DNA from: a virus
DNA: 22,982 nt
IMG/VR virus record: IMGVR_UViG_3300042332_002047
Location: 1-22,982 of that record
Reading direction: 5' to 3' (one strand)
This document shows positions 7,595 to 20,701 of the stretch, one piece after another (the stretch's first letter is position 1; each line of letters begins with the position of its first letter). The notes beneath the pieces are model-generated. The model was given only the letters and a program-made list of their open reading frames with translations. It was not told the origin of the DNA and did no database searches. The translations under genes were made by a program, and so were the position numbers.

Positions 7595-7846
7595 TTAGCA
7601 GCTGGGAGGCTCCGCCAACTCTCTGAGACACTCGTCCACTTCAGTGCCCTCAATGTGGTCGTAAGCCAATGCGGCCATGTTCCAGCACCCCGCTTCGGCC
7701 GGATGGGTAGCTTCGTAGAACTTGAAGTCGGCTGATTGTTCACAGCCTTGCATTTTGTAGAACTGTCGTGCCAATGCGTTGCACTCGTCAACAATTTGCT
7801 GATCGCTTCTTGGCTTGCTGCTATGCGGGGCGCACCAGGCTGTCAT
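7595..7846 (-). CDS. Hypothetical small protein (83 aa)
   Basis: ATG at 7846 overlaps the previous stop as ATGA. The core IVDECNALARQFYKMQGC, then FKFYEATHPAEAGCWNMAALAYDHIEGTEVDECLRELAE, reads as a compact helical domain; the pattern FYxATHPxExxxWxxAxxAxxxIxxTEVDxCL recalls small proteins I associate with cyanobacteria and their phages. Function unknown. It is the last gene of the leftward array before the terminator at 7444-7479. Confidence 0.75.
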   Translation of the reverse strand: MTAWCAPHSSKPRSDQQIVDECNALARQFYKMQGCEQSADFKFYEATHPAEAGCWNMAALAYDHIEGTEVDECLRELAEPPSC

Positions 7847-8832
7847 ACCGCCCGCTCCGCAGGGGCCGCCTCAAGGGCCGCCAGGATCAACGCTTTGTCA
7901 GTGGAGGTGAAATAGGCCCGGCCGTCCTTGACTCTCGCGATCGCTTGGTCTTTGAGCACCGAGGGATCGGGCTTCCAGCCGGGGGTGTGCATCCAGGGCA
8001 GCTGAGGGGAACAGGAAGCGTGCCCATTGAATGCAGCCACGCTCCAGGTCAGCCAGCGAGAATCTTTCAGGACCTGGATCGTGCCCAGGGCGTCTGCATC
8101 TTCCGGCCCCGGCGGCCTGTGGGTAATGCCTTTTGTCGGCATCCGATGGGCCTCTTCGAGGTCGGGCGTTGGAGCTGCTGGAGGGGTGAGCTGGAACGCT
8201 GGAGCGTCGGACGGGTTGAGGGTTCTTTCCTTCACGGTGACGTAGGTGGGGCCTTGGCCAAACTTGACTTCCGTCCAGTGCGTTTCCATGAGGGAATGTC
8301 CATAAATGCAGCGTCCGTCGACGTAGTACCAGGCGGCGGTTGGAGTCTTGACGCAGGCGAGTCTGTCCTTGTTTTGGATAGCCGCCGCAAGGCAGTGTTG
8401 GCTAGGGAGATCCAGCGCAAGGCTCAGCGCAAGGCCCAAAGCGTGCTCGCGCTCGCTTATGGCTTTGTTGATGGCTTTTTCGAGCGCCTGGTCAATGTTC
8501 ATGGCAGAAATTGCAAGTGGGTCGGTTAAGCGGGCCACGCCCCTGGTGAAACGGACGTCGGTGATCCTGCCCTGGAGGTCTTGCCTCCAGTCGACGGTCA
8601 TGTCAGGCCAGTCTTCGAAAGCAGGAATGCCAACAGAGGTCTTCAAGTAGTCGCCGGTTCCGGAAAAGTTGCCGCTAGAGCAAAGCAAGGTCTCCGGCCG
8701 GCTGGCCCCCGGCAGTGGCGCATCGCTGAACTTGGTGCCGCCATCGCGCTGGAAGGCTACCTTGATGGTGCGAGCGTCTTGGCCAATGGCCTCGATGGTG
8801 GTTTTCGGTGGGGAGGGTTGAGACTCGTTCAT
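7843..8832 (-). CDS. Hypothetical protein with RPP-EDAD C-terminal module (329 aa)
   Basis: ATG at 8832, with ATGA overlaps at both ends. The N-terminal two thirds are a mixed alpha/beta sequence with no known motif. The C-terminal part (about 230-322) contains ITHRPPGPEDADALGTIQV, WLTWSVAAFNG, PWMHTPGWKP and a terminal LK..A / LILAALEAA helix. The same order of motifs appears in the 143-residue protein at 13632-14063, so the two are probably related by domain duplication. I recall similar C-terminal modules in cyanobacterial and phage hypotheticals. No function is known to me. Confidence 0.8.
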   Translation of the reverse strand: MNESQPSPPKTTIEAIGQDARTIKVAFQRDGGTKFSDAPLPGASRPETLLCSSGNFSGTGDYLKTSVGIPAFEDWPDMTVDWRQDLQGRITDVRFTRGVARLTDPLAISAMNIDQALEKAINKAISEREHALGLALSLALDLPSQHCLAAAIQNKDRLACVKTPTAAWYYVDGRCIYGHSLMETHWTEVKFGQGPTYVTVKERTLNPSDAPAFQLTPPAAPTPDLEEAHRMPTKGITHRPPGPEDADALGTIQVLKDSRWLTWSVAAFNGHASCSPQLPWMHTPGWKPDPSVLKDQAIARVKDGRAYFTSTDKALILAALEAAPAERAV

Positions 8833-9930: not shown

Positions 9931-10650
9931 TCACCACTTATCAGCCGCCCCGGGGGCACCTGCAGTGGGAGCAACGCCCTGGGCGCCGAGGGCGTCGGTC
10001 GCTTCGGGAGGTTGGCCCTTGCCCTTGGAAGGCTTGCCCTTGGCCGTGGCAGGCCTGCCGGCGAACGGGTCAGCGCCGTCGAAGAGGGCTGGCAGCCAGA
10101 TCCCGTCGCGGGCCGCCTCCCAGCGTTCGATGGAATCGGGGTCGGCGGGCTTGAGGGCCGGGGTGGCGAAGTAGGCGGTGTCTTTTTTTAGGCCAGTGCG
10201 AGTGATCGAGAAGTAGTAAGGGGCAATGGAATCGCCCTCATACATGTAATCCTCAATGCCAAAAGTGCGCTCCATCTGTTCACGCAGCTTGAGCTGCGGA
10301 ATGAACAAAATCGAGAACTGACCGCTCTCCTTACTAAGGACTGTCATGGCGAGGAAATACTTCGGCTGGTCCTTCTCGCCGGTCCCCTTGTTCTTGCCCT
10401 CCCAAGTCAGACCGATGTCGTTAAGATACTCCTCGGGAAACTCCGGGAAGCGGCGAGTGCGCTTGGCGGTCTCAGAGAAGTATTCAAAGCCGCCGATTAC
10501 ATGCCCGGAAGCGTATGTGCCGCAAGGGCGCACGTTGATCGTCTCGCCGTCGGAGAGCTTAGAGGGGTCGATGTAGCGGGGATCGCCGCCGGAGTTCATC
10601 TCCTGCTTGCAGGTTTTGGCGTCTTTGTAGTTTGGTGGCAGCATGCTCAT
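9931..10650 (-). CDS. Probable phage ssDNA-binding protein (OB-fold)
   Basis: 239 residues; ATG at 10650, directly after ATCCCC (a second ATG lies two codons in). The pattern fits phage single-strand binding proteins: ETINVRPCGTYASGHVIGGF, a short variable part, KYFLAMTVLSKESGQFSILF, FIPQLKLREQMERTFG, and YFSITRTGLKKDTAYFATP. The last two recall the common phage motif of a beta-strand, an I-xQ-x-RxQ helix and TRTGxG-DTxY. The tail is Pro/Gly/Lys-rich and disordered (DPFAGRPATAKGKPSKGKG), ending ADKW. It would coat ssDNA at the phage fork, alongside the second SSB at 11357-12007. No structure or search supports this beyond motif memory. Confidence 0.65.
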   Translation of the reverse strand: MSMLPPNYKDAKTCKQEMNSGGDPRYIDPSKLSDGETINVRPCGTYASGHVIGGFEYFSETAKRTRRFPEFPEEYLNDIGLTWEGKNKGTGEKDQPKYFLAMTVLSKESGQFSILFIPQLKLREQMERTFGIEDYMYEGDSIAPYYFSITRTGLKKDTAYFATPALKPADPDSIERWEAARDGIWLPALFDGADPFAGRPATAKGKPSKGKGQPPEATDALGAQGVAPTAGAPGAADKW

Positions 10651-10713: not shown

Positions 10714-10998
10714 TTAGACGATGTACCAGTCCTGGGCCAACATGTCGCCTTGGCTGGGCAGCCAGGGAATGCGATGGCCTTGAACCGTGTGAATGAAGAC
10801 GTAAGGAAAAGTCATAGGATCGAACCCGGATTTGTGGGGCTGAGCCAGCTGGATGAATTGGCCTGGGCCATTCCATCCGCGGCGAGACCAGCAGCGTCCG
10901 AAACGAGGGCCTTCAACGCCTTCGTAATCGGGAGAGCAAGTGGCGATCGCGTCGTTGAAGTCGGCGATTACTGCAGCGAAAGAATCGTTTTGTTCCAT
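10714..10998 (-). CDS. tad2: Tad2-like (DUF2829) Thoeris anti-defence protein
   Basis: 94 residues from the ATG at 10998 (CTCTTCCC upstream); an ATG at 11073 would add 25 residues. The family signature is clear at both ends: RCWSRRGWNGPGQFIQLAQ (about 35-53) and MTFPYVFIHTVQGHRIPWLP then SQGDMLAQDWYIV at the C-terminus, matching the DUF2829 pattern RxGWNGKGxFI ... W.xSQxDMLAxDWxx. Tad2 proteins of this family bind and hold the Thoeris signal (glycocyclic ADP-ribose) and stop ThsA activation; some homologues bind other cyclic nucleotides. The N-terminal part, about 35 residues including SFAAVIADFNDAIATC, is somewhat longer than the usual lead into RxGWNG. It lies next to an Acb2-like gene. Not every DUF2829 protein need be an inhibitor. 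Confidence 0.8.
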   Translation of the reverse strand: MEQNDSFAAVIADFNDAIATCSPDYEGVEGPRFGRCWSRRGWNGPGQFIQLAQPHKSGFDPMTFPYVFIHTVQGHRIPWLPSQGDMLAQDWYIV

Positions 10999-11057
10999 GG
11001 GAAGAGTGCAGTAGCGGTGGGTTTCGGTGAGAAGGGCGAAGCAGGGATTGTGCCGGC

Positions 11058-11288
11058 CTAGGTAGGCGTGCATTGTCCCCGCCGGGCGATGGCGGCGTTG
11101 GCCCAAAAAATAGCCTGCTCAAGATTGGTCAGAGCCAGAGAAGTCTCCCGGCAGTCAGGGCAGGACTCGTTAATCAGCATGGCAAGAGTTTTGCCCTCAA
11201 ATCGCAAGGCCTCGTAGAGCTGTGGCTGCCCTTCCTTAGGGGCGTGATAGCTGAATCGAGTGGTGATCTCTTCGTGGGAAACGGGCAT
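11058..11288 (-). CDS. acb2: Acb2/Tad1-hairpin family cyclic-nucleotide sponge
   Basis: 76 residues from the ATG at 11288. The core matches the Acb2/Tad1 hairpin domain as I know it: RFSYHAPKEGQPQLYEALR (11-29), a helix with TLAMLINESCPDCRETSLAL (34-53), and TNLEQAIFWANAAIARRG (54-71). The YHxP, YExLR, C/SxP-xxRExSLAxTxLExAxxWANAAIAR series is diagnostic. Acb2 forms hexamers that soak up cyclic di- and trinucleotides made by CBASS cyclases; the same domain occurs in Tad1, which takes Thoeris signals. A TTG at 11360 overlapping the SSB stop would add 24 residues. The Tad2-like gene follows at once, so both may be made together. No extra beta-domain is seen, which fits Acb2 better than Tad1. 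Confidence 0.88.
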   Translation of the reverse strand: MPVSHEEITTRFSYHAPKEGQPQLYEALRFEGKTLAMLINESCPDCRETSLALTNLEQAIFWANAAIARRGQCTPT

Positions 11289-11356
11289 GGCGTTACTGGA
11301 ATCAGAGAGCAAGTGTTGCATGAAGCCTTCGGGGCCAGGGCCGAACAGGACTGAAG

Positions 11357-12007
11357 TCAACTCCAGTCCGCCGGCATCGGCGGCGCATCGCTGCCGTCGA
11401 AGTCAGCGTTGGAGTAGCCGGCGGCTTCCTTGCCATCAGCGGCGTCGTGGCCGCGGGCCCTGGCGTGGAAGCGCAGGACCCGAACCTTGACTTCCACGAA
11501 GGGGGTGCCCTCTTTGGAAGCGCGCATCTCAAGGATGCCGCTGGCGGTGACCAAGGCTCCTTTGGGGGCATCAAGTAGTCGCTCGCGGTTGGCGCCAAAG
11601 CAGCGGATGCGGAACCAATCGACCTTCTCTTCGCCGTTCTCCAGGCGGTTGACCGCCAGGGACGAAGAATCGGACTGTTCGGCCCCCCGAACCTGGCCGG
11701 ACAGGCGCCCGGTCACGGACACCTCGTTGAGGAACTGGTCTTCGTGGCCCTTGCAAATGGAGCGCAGGTTCATGACCGGCAAGTTGCCATCACCATCGAG
11801 GGTGATGTCGCCGGTCAGGATGACAAGGTTGCCGACCTCTTGGCCAAGCAAGCTGTTGGCGGTGGCAGAGCCAGGCCGGGCAACAACCCGAAGCTGGATC
11901 TTCTGGGCGTCGTCCGTGAGTGTCTCGCAGGTAGCGAGCTCGTTGCCGGAGACCGCCTCTAGTGTGGGCCGAGAGGCGATCTTGGTGAGAACTGAGGCCG
12001 TGCTCAA
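11357..12007 (-). CDS. Single-stranded DNA-binding protein with two OB folds
   Basis: 216 residues from a TTG at 12007 (CCCAACC upstream); no in-frame ATG fits. A first OB-like unit spans about 1-85 (LATCETL, IQLRVVARP, GNLVILTGDITLDGDGNLPV) and a second about 92-184 (NEVSVTGRLSG, VDWFRIRCFGANRERLLD, GALVTASGILEMRASKEG, FVEVKVRVLRF). The second is the more SSB-like: WFRIRCFG and GALVTASGILE are typical of bacterial SSB. The tail ends SDAPPMPADWS, a short acidic/proline tip resembling the partner-docking end of SSB but not the canonical DDDIPF. A two-OB SSB could work as a dimer rather than a tetramer. The genes on both sides are the clamp-like protein and Acb2-like protein. Confidence 0.75.
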   Translation of the reverse strand: MSTASVLTKIASRPTLEAVSGNELATCETLTDDAQKIQLRVVARPGSATANSLLGQEVGNLVILTGDITLDGDGNLPVMNLRSICKGHEDQFLNEVSVTGRLSGQVRGAEQSDSSSLAVNRLENGEEKVDWFRIRCFGANRERLLDAPKGALVTASGILEMRASKEGTPFVEVKVRVLRFHARARGHDAADGKEAAGYSNADFDGSDAPPMPADWS

Positions 12008-13352: not shown

Positions 13353-13635
13353 TGCGCTTGAGGCGATTCGCAAGGATGTCGCCGATGGCGTGCAGCGCCT
13401 CCAGCTTGGCAGCGGGGGCGTCGACTGCAGCGAGCTTGAGGCATCTGACGTTCAAGGCTTCGCAGGATGCCAGCCACTGAGCAGGTGGGTAGTTCTTGTG
13501 GCGATGGACGGAGACCTGAAAGTCTCTGCCTGGCGGGACAAGCAAGGTCCAAACGCGATGAGTGCGGTCCACTTCTCCCTGGCGGAAGGAGGTGGTGCCG
13601 ACAAAAAGGTCAACAAGGTCCATAGGGGCGCTCAT
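13270..13635 (-). CDS. Hypothetical protein (121 aa)
   Basis: ATG at 13635 preceded by CAACCCC and sharing ATGA with the upstream stop (13632); a second in-frame ATG is four codons in. MDLVDLFVGTTSFRQGEV, VWTLLVPPGRDFQVSVHRHK, then a helical AAKLEALHAIGDILANRLKR and a Pro/Ser tail. The gene converges on and overlaps the rightward gene for 83 nt, where it codes for the disordered tail. Function unknown. Confidence 0.75.
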   Translation of the reverse strand: MSAPMDLVDLFVGTTSFRQGEVDRTHRVWTLLVPPGRDFQVSVHRHKNYPPAQWLASCEALNVRCLKLAAVDAPAAKLEALHAIGDILANRLKRINSALALMNPDPDATAPLEASPPPPSD

Positions 13636-14063
13636 GGGGTTGTGTCGGGGGCTGACTCCACAACTTGCCGCAGCAGGGCGATCTGCTCGGTGGTAAAGTC
13701 CGTGTCAAAATCCTTGCTGTCCAGCAGCGCCAGCGCCCGCTCCTTCAGCGTAGGCTCGCGCATCGGGCGCCAGTTGGCGGTGTGGAGCCAGGCCTGGTGC
13801 TGGTTCTTGGCAACGTTATCCCAGGAATCAAAGTTCCATTTCCCCGCAAAAAGATACTGAACGAATCCACATTCATCCGCATCCTCTTCAGCCGGCGGCC
13901 GATCCGTAATCGGCTCAGGCCACTGATGCCGCAGCGCCTTGACGGCCTGGGCGGCGCCCCAGCGGGCGGCAAGGGCGCAGTCTCTTCCAATGCTTCCTGG
14001 GTTTGAAATACACTCTTCCAGTAACTCTTCCGATGGCGTGATGCTGTCAGGATCAAAGGTCAT
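13632..14063 (-). CDS. Hypothetical protein with RPP-EDAD module (143 aa)
   Basis: ATG at 14063 with GGAGGA 8 nt upstream (14077-14072), the best leftward Shine-Dalgarno in the window. Residues about 25-95 hold CALAARWGAAQAVKALRH, ITDRPPAEEDADECGFVQY, WNFDSWDNVAKNQ and WLHTANWRP; the end is LKERALALLDSKDFDT and a helix with TEQIALLRQVVE. These pieces repeat in order the C-terminus of the 329-residue protein at 7843-8832. The module recalls cyanobacterial and phage hypotheticals with the RPP-DAD-G-xQ motif. Function unknown. Confidence 0.8.
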   Translation of the reverse strand: MTFDPDSITPSEELLEECISNPGSIGRDCALAARWGAAQAVKALRHQWPEPITDRPPAEEDADECGFVQYLFAGKWNFDSWDNVAKNQHQAWLHTANWRPMREPTLKERALALLDSKDFDTDFTTEQIALLRQVVESAPDTTP

Positions 14064-15413: not shown

Positions 15414-15787
15414 TGCCCCTGCCTTGGGAGATGCCCCTCGTCGGCGAGGTAAGCATCAAGCTCTCCGGCGCTCGGCTCCTGGTGGGGCGCGGGCGAGGCG
15501 GGAGCAGCAGGGGCGGCTTCGGCCGCGGCCTCCGCCTCTACCTCGCGGACGGCTTCCTCGAAGTAGGCGTCCTGGCAGATACCTGTCATCAAGCGCCGAG
15601 CGATGCGCTCGCATTCAATCGCGGTCAGGAAGCCGCCAATGTTCAGCAGGTTCATGGCGGTGTGGCGACGCTCCCAGAGTTCGTGATTGAGCAGGGTGAG
15701 CCCCTGGCTCTCGACCTGGTCCTTGATGGGGGGCGCAGAAAGGCCCAGGAGCAGGGGGGCCTTGGAGGAGATCTCGGTCTTCAGCAT
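15410..15787 (-). CDS. Hypothetical protein (125 aa)
   Basis: ATG at 15787 lies 7 nt inside the GP88-type gene; upstream context is ACCCCCTC. Residues 10-80 hold LLLGLSAPPIKDQVESQGLT, a helix HELWERRHTAMNLLNIGGFL and TAIECERIARRLMTGICQDA, the last resembling a helix-turn-helix-like pair. The rest is Ala/Glu-rich (VREVEAEAAAEAAPAAPASP) and probably unstructured. No named family. Confidence 0.7.
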   Translation of the reverse strand: MLKTEISSKAPLLLGLSAPPIKDQVESQGLTLLNHELWERRHTAMNLLNIGGFLTAIECERIARRLMTGICQDAYFEEAVREVEAEAAAEAAPAAPASPAPHQEPSAGELDAYLADEGHLPRQGQ

Positions 15788-16812
15788 GAGGGGGTGAGGG
15801 ATCGATGGGGATTGGAATTGGAAGCGCCGTAGCCAGTGAACTCTCCGGCGGTCCGGCGGGCGTTGATGGCGTTGGCGGCGCCTGAGCCCTTGGGCTGCCA
15901 CCCGTGCACCAGGTGGGCGAAGTGGACGGGCTCGTCCTGGTAGGCGTAGCTGTCGTCAAAGTCCAGAGGAAGACCCAGGCTGCACGCTTCTGCTTCAGTT
16001 TGCACCACTCGTGCGCTTCTTGGGAAGTGGTCGGTGATCAGGTGGTCAAAGCGGCCGCCCCAGCTGGCGGTGATGCGGAGGTTGGCGGGAATGTCCTGGC
16101 TGACCCAGAAGGGCAGGGCCTTGGAATAAAGGTAGACAACCATGGGCTCGATCGCCCAAGCGAATGTGGTGATGGCGGAGGCTAGCTCAGGCTTGAAGGC
16201 GTCGCCGCTCTCGAAGAATCTGACTCGCTCAGTGAAGGAGCGGCGCTGCTGGAAGAAAGCCGTGGCCAAGTTGGCCGTGATGTCGTAGCTGTTGAGTGAA
16301 GCCAGCAGGTCGAAGTTGCGCCAGCGGAGGTTCCGCACGGTTGAGCGGTAGCGCTCCTGGGACGCGGCATAGCAAGCGAAGTTCAAGCCCGGCGAGGTCC
16401 AGGCAGAACCGCCGTCGCGAGGGACGCGGGCGAGGCAGTCCTTGGCGCCGGGGCAGGTGTGGCCGGCGGGCAGGGAAAGGATCATGGTCGAGTTCGGCAA
16501 TTTGGAATTGCCATGAGTAAATCGCACCAGCTGGTCCGATGGCGCGGCCGTGATGAAGGGCTGCAAGCGCCAGAAGTTCATGAAGCGGGCATGTGGGGCA
16601 CTAGAAAACCCCTCGCCCGGTGGCAGGGCAAGGGCGGCTTTAGAGCGTCTCAAGTGGGGCTTCCAGCGGTCCTTGCCACGGGAGTCGCGACAAGACTCGC
16701 CGCGGGGGCGTTTGCAGAGGGGACAGGCCACGAGTAAAGCCAGGGGCCAGCCCGAGGAGACGGTGTGCGGTTCGCTTGCGTTCATGTGCTGTTCGTTAAT
16801 TAACTCCGACAT
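15781..16812 (-). CDS. GP88-type phage protein with N-terminal zinc motif
   Basis: 343 residues from the ATG at 16812; a second ATG at 16785 would remove nine residues and the 13-nt overlap with the upstream gene. Residues 30-55 form a phage-type zinc finger: C30-PLC33-x7-C41 then KPHLRR with His53, the pattern CPxC-PGxxCR-xxGxxxxPHxxR. Residues 110-126, MILSLPAGHTCPGAKDC, open the GP88 domain, first named in a mycobacteriophage; FACYAASQERY, RNLRWRNFDLL and RITASWGGRFD continue it. GP88 proteins are of unknown function, with Cys placed as for metal binding. The fusion suggests a nucleic-acid-binding role, which is inference. Confidence 0.8.
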   Translation of the reverse strand: MSELINEQHMNASEPHTVSSGWPLALLVACPLCKRPRGESCRDSRGKDRWKPHLRRSKAALALPPGEGFSSAPHARFMNFWRLQPFITAAPSDQLVRFTHGNSKLPNSTMILSLPAGHTCPGAKDCLARVPRDGGSAWTSPGLNFACYAASQERYRSTVRNLRWRNFDLLASLNSYDITANLATAFFQQRRSFTERVRFFESGDAFKPELASAITTFAWAIEPMVVYLYSKALPFWVSQDIPANLRITASWGGRFDHLITDHFPRSARVVQTEAEACSLGLPLDFDDSYAYQDEPVHFAHLVHGWQPKGSGAANAINARRTAGEFTGYGASNSNPHRSLTPSC

Positions 16813-17189
16813 CGGCAGTAACTGTTGTTGCAAAGATAGGAATAGTCGGGATACGGCTTTTCTCCATGCGCCTTTTCGCATACAAATTCGTATGCGTCAC
16901 TACGCAAAAGAGGATGCGTTAGAACAATGCGATAGCCTGTTTCCACGTCTCTAACGACCGTTCCAATGGGCCACGGCGGAAGATCGTTGCCTTCAGGTTC
17001 TAGCTCTGTCGTCGGCTTGGCAGCTATTGCAGGTGAAGCCTGCTCGTTGTTCGTAATCGCATCAAGCAGCGTTGCAATCACGCTGTTGCAGGTCTCGTCG
17101 TCGAGGTGTTCGGCGTGCATCGCCATGGTCAGGGACTCGACGAGGTCTCCCTCGCGGATCGTGATCAGGTCGTCAGAGGTGTCAGGCAT
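16800..17189 (-). CDS. Hypothetical protein (129 aa)
   Basis: ATG at 17189 after CCGTCTCC; the frame is open upstream to 17243 but that part is a poor match to protein sequence. MPDTSDDLITIREGDLVESL, then an acidic helical part (LDDETCNSVIATLLDAITNN), a linker, and a beta-rich C-terminus (WPIGTVVRDVETGYRIVLTH, YEFVCEKAHGEKPYP). The end has three Cys close together (CNNSYCRC), perhaps metal binding. The base composition near 16850 is lower in GC than its surroundings. Function unknown. Confidence 0.75.
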   Translation of the reverse strand: MPDTSDDLITIREGDLVESLTMAMHAEHLDDETCNSVIATLLDAITNNEQASPAIAAKPTTELEPEGNDLPPWPIGTVVRDVETGYRIVLTHPLLRSDAYEFVCEKAHGEKPYPDYSYLCNNSYCRCRS

Positions 17190-19058: not shown

Positions 19059-20066
19059 TCAGACCCCGGCCAGGGCTCGGGCGGCCTGCTCGGCGCGGCG
19101 AATGATGGTCCGGCCGCCACCGAAGTAGGCGCTGTGGAAGCGGCGCTTATTGTTGGCAGCGTGGGGCGGAATGCGCCCCTCGACCTGAGTCACGGCGTTG
19201 AACGCGGCCCAGGCGGTACCGGCCACGCCGGGGATGTCCATGCCGACGCCATGCTGCCAGGCAGCCATCAGGGCGTCGGCCTTGCTGGGCATGTCGAGCA
19301 GGACGTCGCCAGAGCGAACTCCGCCGCTGGCGGTCTCGACGGGCTTGGGTTGGTAAGCGGCGTTGATGAAGTTGCGAAAGCCCAGGTCGTCAACTGCCGT
19401 CTGCTGCATCGCCTGGTAGAGCGAAATCGTCTCAGGGAAGGACTGGCGAGCAAAGTCGATTTGCTCCAAGACCTTGTCGATCTGAGCGATCTCAAAGGCG
19501 TTGTGAGCAATCGAGAATTGGCCCGATCCAGCCTGGCCGTCGCGGTGAAGTGCTCCTTGGAGGGTGTTGTTGCAAACCACGCGGGTATTGCTAAACATCC
19601 CGCCAAAGCCGACGCTCCCGTCATGGCCCAAATAGCCGACGACATAGCGCTTGACGGTGTCATTGGGAATGACAGTGCCTTCAAGGTCGCGCAGTTTGGC
19701 GGTGAAGGCGACCTTGGCTCCCTCGCGCAGGACAACGACCGCGTCGATGGTGGCCTCAGATTCGATGCGCTTGGCAAAGTCCAGCAGCATGGAGTTGGGG
19801 ATGACTTCGTAGCCAGGGCTGACGGTACCCAAGACGTGCTTTTTATCGGGCCGCCAAATGGCCTTGGTCTTACCTTTGAGGGGGACCATGTCCTGTGGAG
19901 CGGAGGGGCTGCCGCCCCACAGCTCAAGTGGCTCAACAGGGAACAAGGCGTTGGCGTCGTTGAAGAAGTAGTCGGCACTCAGCTGCGCCTCGTCGGTGAC
20001 GATGTTGCCGCCGCCGTGCCAGGCGCCGACTTGTGCGAATGTGCCGGAGGTAAACTCAGAAGACAT
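19059..20066 (-). CDS. DUF932 phage/plasmid-like protein
   Basis: 335 residues from the ATG at 20066 (TCAACGCC upstream). Typical features of DUF932: WHGGGNIV near the start, GTVSPGYEVIPNSMLLDFAK, a strand-rich middle VAFTAKLRDLEGTVIPNDTV then KRYVVGYLGHDGSVGFGG, TRVVCNNTLQGAL, and a C-terminal helical part with TAWAAFNAVTQVEGRI. DUF932 proteins are common in phages, plasmids and integrative elements, usually near recombination or replication genes; their activity is unknown. The length (about 330) fits the family. Confidence 0.9.
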   Translation of the reverse strand: MSSEFTSGTFAQVGAWHGGGNIVTDEAQLSADYFFNDANALFPVEPLELWGGSPSAPQDMVPLKGKTKAIWRPDKKHVLGTVSPGYEVIPNSMLLDFAKRIESEATIDAVVVLREGAKVAFTAKLRDLEGTVIPNDTVKRYVVGYLGHDGSVGFGGMFSNTRVVCNNTLQGALHRDGQAGSGQFSIAHNAFEIAQIDKVLEQIDFARQSFPETISLYQAMQQTAVDDLGFRNFINAAYQPKPVETASGGVRSGDVLLDMPSKADALMAAWQHGVGMDIPGVAGTAWAAFNAVTQVEGRIPPHAANNKRRFHSAYFGGGRTIIRRAEQAARALAGV

Positions 20067-20104
20067 GGCGTTGAGAGGGTGAGGGGAAACAGGGAAGCAG
20101 CACT

Positions 20105-20701
20105 TCAACAACCGGCGCGGTTCTTGAAGTAGGAATCAAAGGCTTCGCGGTCGATGCCTATTGAATTAAGGAACTGATCAGAGACAAAGCGCTGGCGCCT
20201 GCAGGGGTCAGGCGACTTACCCCTGGTTTGAACCATTTCGAGAATGGTTGCCCCTTGCCGGGCTTTGCCTTGAAGCTCGAAAGCGGCAGAGCGGAGCTTG
20301 TCGAGCGTGGCAAAAGTTAAACGAGCGTCTTCGTTCACGGCAGCGAGGATCGTTCGGGCTTCTCGGACTCGGCCGGGGTCGCTGTTTACGACCCGCTCGA
20401 AGTCCTGCTCCAATGCCTGAAGGCTGGCGTTGGTAGCCTCACGAATGTTTCTGTTAAGCAGGTCGGAGATGTAGGCGATGGCGCCAATTGTCTGAACAAC
20501 GCTTGGGCTAGGGCGGGGCTCTTTCTGGGAGAAGATCAAGGTCAGCAGCACGACAAGGTCGTCGAGCCCCTCGTGCTGTTGAGTGTCCCCGAAGTGGAAC
20601 GCCTGGAGAGCAGTGGGATCGGGGAAGCCCCTGCCGAGAGCGGCGAAGAGGGCCTCGGTGCTGACCGAATCAGGGACTTGGTCGCTGGGCGTGTCGCTCA
20701 T
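20105..20701 (-). CDS. Hypothetical protein (198 aa), helical
   Basis: ATG at 20701 after CTAACCCC, sharing ATGA with the upstream stop. Mostly helical: EALFAALGRGFPDPTALQAF, DDLVVLLTLIFSQKE, SVVQTIGAIAYISDLLNRNI, NASLQALEQDFERVV, REARTILAAVNEDARLTF. A C-terminal part, FVSDQFLNSIGIDREAFDSY, looks like a small separate unit. It may form a helical bundle or coiled coil. No named family. It lies directly upstream of the DUF932 gene (38 nt apart). Confidence 0.75.
   Translation of the reverse strand: MSDTPSDQVPDSVSTEALFAALGRGFPDPTALQAFHFGDTQQHEGLDDLVVLLTLIFSQKEPRPSPSVVQTIGAIAYISDLLNRNIREATNASLQALEQDFERVVNSDPGRVREARTILAAVNEDARLTFATLDKLRSAAFELQGKARQGATILEMVQTRGKSPDPCRRQRFVSDQFLNSIGIDREAFDSYFKNRAGC

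Follow-up and report, generated by a model that had tools for sequence, protein, structure and literature searches.

Adjacent acb2-like and tad2-like genes in a viral genome: a putative pair of nucleotide-signal sponges that recurs in unrelated phages

Two small neighbouring genes of a viral genome, one resembling acb2 and the other tad2, raise the question of whether they form a two-gene anti-defence cassette or merely share a neighbourhood. The window (the whole stretch of DNA that was analysed) is the complete viral record IMGVR_UViG_3300042332_002047 of IMG/VR, 22,982 bp in length, and its genes lie mostly on the minus strand. We read the pair, with a probability of roughly 0.7 as judged from sequence, as an accessory module against host defences that consists of two sponges for nucleotide signals, the Acb2 half acting against CBASS and the Tad2 half against Thoeris. 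The features of the locus are given below in the order of transcription.

11357..12007, minus strand: upstream flank, 216-aa protein with a weak SSB match (Pfam SSB, below cut-off)
10999..11356, minus strand: variable segment of 358 bp that holds acb2 in the window (DNA alignment with sister phages, ORF coordinates)
11058..11288, minus strand: acb2-like gene, 76-aa Acb2/Tad1-hairpin protein (PF24729, PHROG 1454, alignment, three-helix model)
10714..10998, minus strand: tad2-like gene, 94-aa Tad2/DUF2829 protein (PF11195, PDB profile matches, fold matches)
9931..10650, minus strand: downstream flank, 239-aa protein of no known family (no library match)

The original prediction placed the two genes in one transcript between SSB genes. 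Along the same-strand run flank–acb2–tad2–flank the intergenic gaps are 68, 59 and 63 bp, and a search for terminator- or promoter-like sites between these genes found none, so that a single transcript is plausible. The setting between SSB genes is weakly supported: the 11357–12007 protein gave a sub-threshold match to Pfam SSB (1.9e-4, 21.9 bits, under the cut-off of 26), and the 9931–10650 protein had no match in Pfam, PHROG, NCBIfam or the PDB. A VapE-like helicase/primase and a PD-(D/E)XK-like nuclease lie farther off in the window and, together with the weak SSB match, point to a replication region as the setting. Both ORFs of the pair are intact and retain their conserved residues. For acb2, no Shine–Dalgarno-like sequence was found ahead of the ATG at 11288; an in-frame ATG at 11321, 33 bp upstream and preceded by GAAGG, would give a protein of 87 aa, and the gene may start there instead.

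Elsewhere in the window, the proteins encoded at 7843–8832 and 13632–14063 share a C-terminal domain that belongs to no known family, with a cross-match in the sister phages, and those at 505–1956, 15781–16881 and 19059–20111 carry DUF3850/ASCH, GP88 and DUF932 domains, respectively. No tRNAs were found in the window and no close DNA or protein relatives of the phage among named phages. A terminase search of the sister and pair-bearing records gave no placement for it.

The motifs YHAP, YEALR and RETSLALTNLEQAIFWANAAIAR were found as claimed in the minus-strand ORF at 11058–11288. Its protein matched PF24729 (Acb2/Tad1 hairpin) with an E value of 9.4e-21 and 74.2 bits (cut-off 27), and T4 Acb2 (Vs.4), used as a positive control, scored 7e-20 and 71.4 bits; the match to PHROG 1454 was 9e-27. 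The predicted membership of the hairpin family was thus confirmed by HMM search. Relatives were collected (80 from viral contigs) and an alignment of 47 sequences was prepared, in which Y14, H15, R29, R47–E48, T54, W62 and several neighbouring residues are invariant. Y14 and T54 align with Tyr8 and Thr68 of T4 Acb2, in which Y8A abolishes or disrupts binding (PMC12657218) and T68M reduces it (PMC12657230). Phe82 of T4 Acb2, which base-stacks on the ligand, is replaced by an invariant alanine in the window subfamily, so affinity or spectrum may differ from those of T4 Acb2. The AlphaFold model (pLDDT 86) contains one short helix and two long ones (residues 5–11, 22–42 and 47–68), the layout that has been described for Acb2 (PMC10419184). 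When a profile of the relatives was run against the PDB, the closest entry was 'Acb2 homolog 43' (9ptq; 4e-6), with Tad1 at 0.0035; T4 Acb2 was not among the finds. A fold search of the PDB with the model gave nothing significant, the hairpin being a very simple fold; in a viral fold library the top named matches were mostly Acb2/Tad1 hairpin proteins (best E 9e-4). The protein would form helical-hairpin oligomers that sequester CBASS-type cyclic oligonucleotides.

Acb2-family genes were also noted in the Paenibacillus larvae phages Vegas, Hayley, Halcyone, Scottie and Likha, where they are labelled 'phosphomannomutase', which looks like a propagated misannotation. Two distinct Acb2-family genes, separated by about 6 kb, are present in one Lysinibacillus prophage (L039, record G003).

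The companion ORF at 10714–10998, also on the minus strand, contains RRGWNGPGQFI and DMLAQDWYIV as reported, and its assignment to DUF2829/Tad2 held in both profile and fold comparisons. The protein matched PF11195 (Tad2-like) with an E value of 1e-17 and 64.9 bits (cut-off 25) and PHROG 872 at 1e-14. A profile built from 49 relatives retrieved SptTad2, AcrIIA7/HgmTad2, SPO1 Tad2 and ModTad2 from the PDB at 3e-19 to 5e-15. The best 24 PDB fold matches of the model (pLDDT 80) are all Tad2/AcrIIA7 structures (E 7e-6 to 1.5e-4, target TM up to 0.82), and the liganded structures among the matches, AcrIIA7 included, all hold a nucleotide signal (cADPR, gcADPR, His-ADPR or cGG). Aligned with SptTad2 and HgmTad2, the window protein is without the insertion between the conserved halves, and the Tad2s compared (solved relatives and SPO1 Tad2) are all longer at this loop. 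Some Tad2s bind cyclic dinucleotides through an insertion (PMC12043709), which is not a requirement for PF11195 membership; SPO1 Tad2, with a longer loop than the window protein, still fails to bind 3'3'-cGAMP (PMC11722364). A Thoeris signal derived from ADP-ribose would accordingly be the ligand of the window protein, either gcADPR or a related molecule, e.g. His-ADPR; this is not narrowed to one molecule because SPO1 Tad2 and ModTad2 have different ligands (PMC13299392). In the absence of the dinucleotide-site insertion, the two sponges of the window would cover separate signals.

Two sister phages, L002 and L003, are 97–99% identical to the window in the flanks (97% for 11357–12007 and 99% for 9931–10650); a search with both flanking genes found no further sisters. 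Both keep tad2, at 84% (L002) and 79% (L003) identity. DNA alignment shows that in place of the 358-bp acb2 segment they have 64 bp of unrelated DNA, and PF24729 was absent from both records. This difference within a near-identical context indicates that acb2 was recently gained or lost in the window lineage; both sisters have the same state and either direction would fit. Against Panoptes, possession of Acb2 can be a disadvantage (PMC12657218, PMC12657230), and this is one way in which the gain and loss of the gene could plausibly be explained. For tad2, dN between the window and the sisters is 0.09–0.10, compared with 0.004–0.013 for the immediate flanks. The dN/dS of 0.41–0.63 indicates that constraint on the protein remains, without evidence of positive selection, and dS is also elevated in comparisons involving the window, which points to recombination. 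In the Tad2 of L003 (8001–8276) an arginine replaces the nearly invariant glycine of RxGWNG.

The frequency of the pairing was surveyed in viral records and bacterial genomes. When 81 viral records with Acb2 were searched over their whole length, Tad2 was present in three (3/81), each time adjacent; conversely, of 78 records with Tad2, eight had Acb2 above cut-off, adjacent in four and about 770 bp away in two (distances derived from contig coordinates). A genome scan added Lysinibacillus boronitolerans (a duplicate of one viral record), Clostridium sp. DSM 17811 and two Paenibacillus bouchesdurhonensis loci, one of which is also a viral record, and the named phages added Mycobacterium phage MalagasyRose (gp4–gp5). 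After merging of duplicates, 13 independent phage or prophage lineages bear both genes. The two are adjacent on one strand in nine (the window, L018, L039/L196, L101, L104/L105, L149/L243, L244, L257 and L172) and non-adjacent in four (L107/L108, L109, L116 and L234). The chance of at least six adjacent pairs among the nine viral lineages, to which the calculation applies, is P ~7e-9, assuming uniform random placement in each record and independent lineages. Among 200 Paenibacillaceae genomes, chosen without reference to the window and with the seed genome left out, 12 carried Acb2, 16 carried Tad2 and three carried both; this set yielded one more adjacent pair. Tad2 is a neighbour at only about 4–5% of the sampled Acb2 loci, and hence neither gene depends on the other. 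In the mycobacteriophages Wintermute, Cheetobro, Marshawn, Curiosium and MalagasyRose, one or both of an Acb2-family gene and a Tad2-like gene lie at the left end (about genes 4–5).

The order is tad2–acb2 in seven of the nine adjacent pairs and the rarer acb2–tad2 in the window and L018. All seven tad2–acb2 pairs have the stop codon of the first gene overlapping or abutting the start codon of the second (TAATG, TGATG, ATGA or a 1-bp gap), and an eighth overlapping tad2–acb2 pair came from the Paenibacillaceae set; the window genes do not overlap and are separated by 59 bp. These overlapping or abutting pairs span Bacillota, one actinobacterial phage and contigs without a known host, and may be translationally coupled. 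In the eighth pair, from a Paenibacillaceae prophage (L294, 1741–1946), the acb2 that overlaps an intact tad2 is broken by an in-frame TGA. The pair therefore recurs in unrelated phages, mostly with overlapping stop and start codons, and the idea of a two-gene anti-defence cassette draws better support from this survey than from the window alone.

Partners are reshuffled between pairs. In L243 and L244, from the same bacterium, acb2 is 98% identical and tad2 44% identical, and across the nine pairs the divergences of the two genes are uncorrelated (Mantel 0.06, p 0.32), a result that is suggestive only because the sequences are short and the pairs few. Together these data suggest repeated assembly of a favoured combination rather than inheritance as one cassette. 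Three pairs (L018, at 1198–1407, L244 and L257) have beside acb2 a divergent Tad2-like subtype in which RxGWNG is replaced by LPxW and DMLAEDW by ELFSExW. It is conceivable, if doubtful, that overlapping tad2–acb2 genes encode a composite sponge in which the cyclic-oligonucleotide half is fixed and the Tad2 half swappable, the divergent subtype holding a still-unknown signal.

The neighbours of the pair had been proposed as candidates for further inhibitors; no new inhibitor family emerged among them. Neighbour clusters at 161 Acb2 loci, judged by eye from their sequences, comprised head, packaging, antitoxin and lysis genes and Tad2, and apart from Tad2 no recurrent small candidate inhibitor was seen. 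No fusion of Acb2 and Tad2 domains in a single protein was present in the pooled loci.

The strongest competitor to a functional pair, which we consider quite possible at somewhat less than even odds, is that both are ordinary accessory anti-defence genes that occupy the same permissive slots and are adjacent without joint function. Most Acb2 loci are without Tad2 and vice versa, gene order varies, partners are reshuffled, anti-CBASS genes are said to occupy anti-defence islands (PMC11722364) and the window pair itself is without overlap, all of which a shared hotspot would explain. A mere hotspot does not, however, predict stop/start overlap or abutment in 7/7 tad2–acb2 pairs and in the eighth.

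Other doubts concern the individual proteins. It is unlikely that the hairpin protein has a target outside CBASS, either another nucleotide (e.g. housekeeping c-di-AMP) or a different role: although Phe82 is not conserved, the invariant RE...T..E motif is closer to Tad1 than to T4 Acb2 and, in many Bacillota prophages, the neighbours of the gene are head and packaging genes, the protein scores on the Pfam family of T4 Acb2, keeps the Tyr8 and Thr68 equivalents and has relatives whose profile matches the solved homologue 43 at 4e-6. We regard as very improbable an AcrIIA7-type anti-CRISPR role for the Tad2-like half in place of a Thoeris sponge. AcrIIA7/HgmTad2 belongs to the same family and is among the profile and fold matches, and certain phage relatives are annotated 'anti-CRISPR protein', but every liganded structure matched, even that of AcrIIA7, holds a nucleotide signal, and a second sponge family alongside fits signal sequestration better. 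There is a similarly slight chance that either copy, or both, is undergoing decay and no longer active, as the arginine in the L003 Tad2 and the stop codon within the Paenibacillaceae prophage acb2 might suggest; the window frames are intact with their conserved residues, and the dN/dS of tad2 implies that protein-level constraint persists.

Under the sponge-pair reading, unrelated phages would assemble the two genes repeatedly, most often as a translationally coupled tad2–acb2 operon, with the halves exchanged independently; in the window lineage acb2 lies upstream of tad2 and was recently gained or lost. The pair would presumably be expressed early. If the two proteins act jointly, one small unit repeatedly serves phages against two defences that rely on nucleotide signals, and gene overlap becomes a search rule, more such genes being sought among short ones overlapping with tad2 or acb2. 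In one bacterium, acb2 genes of 98% identity beside different tad2 types offer a natural experiment on the signal of each Tad2 type. Sisters with and without acb2 provide matched backgrounds for the cost of this gene, e.g. in the face of Panoptes, which Acb2 sponges trigger.

Both proteins are new members of known families; the interest lies in their pairing, which recurs and usually involves overlap. No description of the pairing was found in open-access papers that name both Acb2 and Tad2, a scope that makes this absence weak evidence. Compared with Acb2 from T4 (Vs.4) and its Pseudomonas phage homologues, the hairpin protein shares PF24729, the score range, the helix order and the equivalents of Tyr8 and Thr68; it is shorter than T4 Acb2 (76 versus 88 aa), is without about 20 hairpin residues and has alanine for Phe82. 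The SRE...ALT..E.A..W.N motif is common to the window protein and the C-terminal hairpin of Tad1, whereas the N-terminal β domain of Tad1, which shapes the gcADPR pocket (PMC12043709), is missing from the window protein. The Tad2-like protein has the same fold as SPO1 Tad2, ModTad2, SptTad2 and HgmTad2/AcrIIA7, with the RxGWNG and W..SQ.D.LA.DW motifs conserved, and differs in a diverged N-terminal extension (about residues 1–33) that is not present in short relatives. SPO1, which encodes Tad2 and Acb4, is likewise a single phage with an anti-Thoeris and an anti-CBASS sponge (PMC11722364), but Acb4 has a different fold from Acb2; no statement that SPO1 tad2 and acb4 adjoin or overlap was found. 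Among T4-like phages acb2 is also missing from a close relative (G2540; PMC12657230), as it is from the sisters of the window phage, and its loss there has been linked to escape from Panoptes (PMC12657230).
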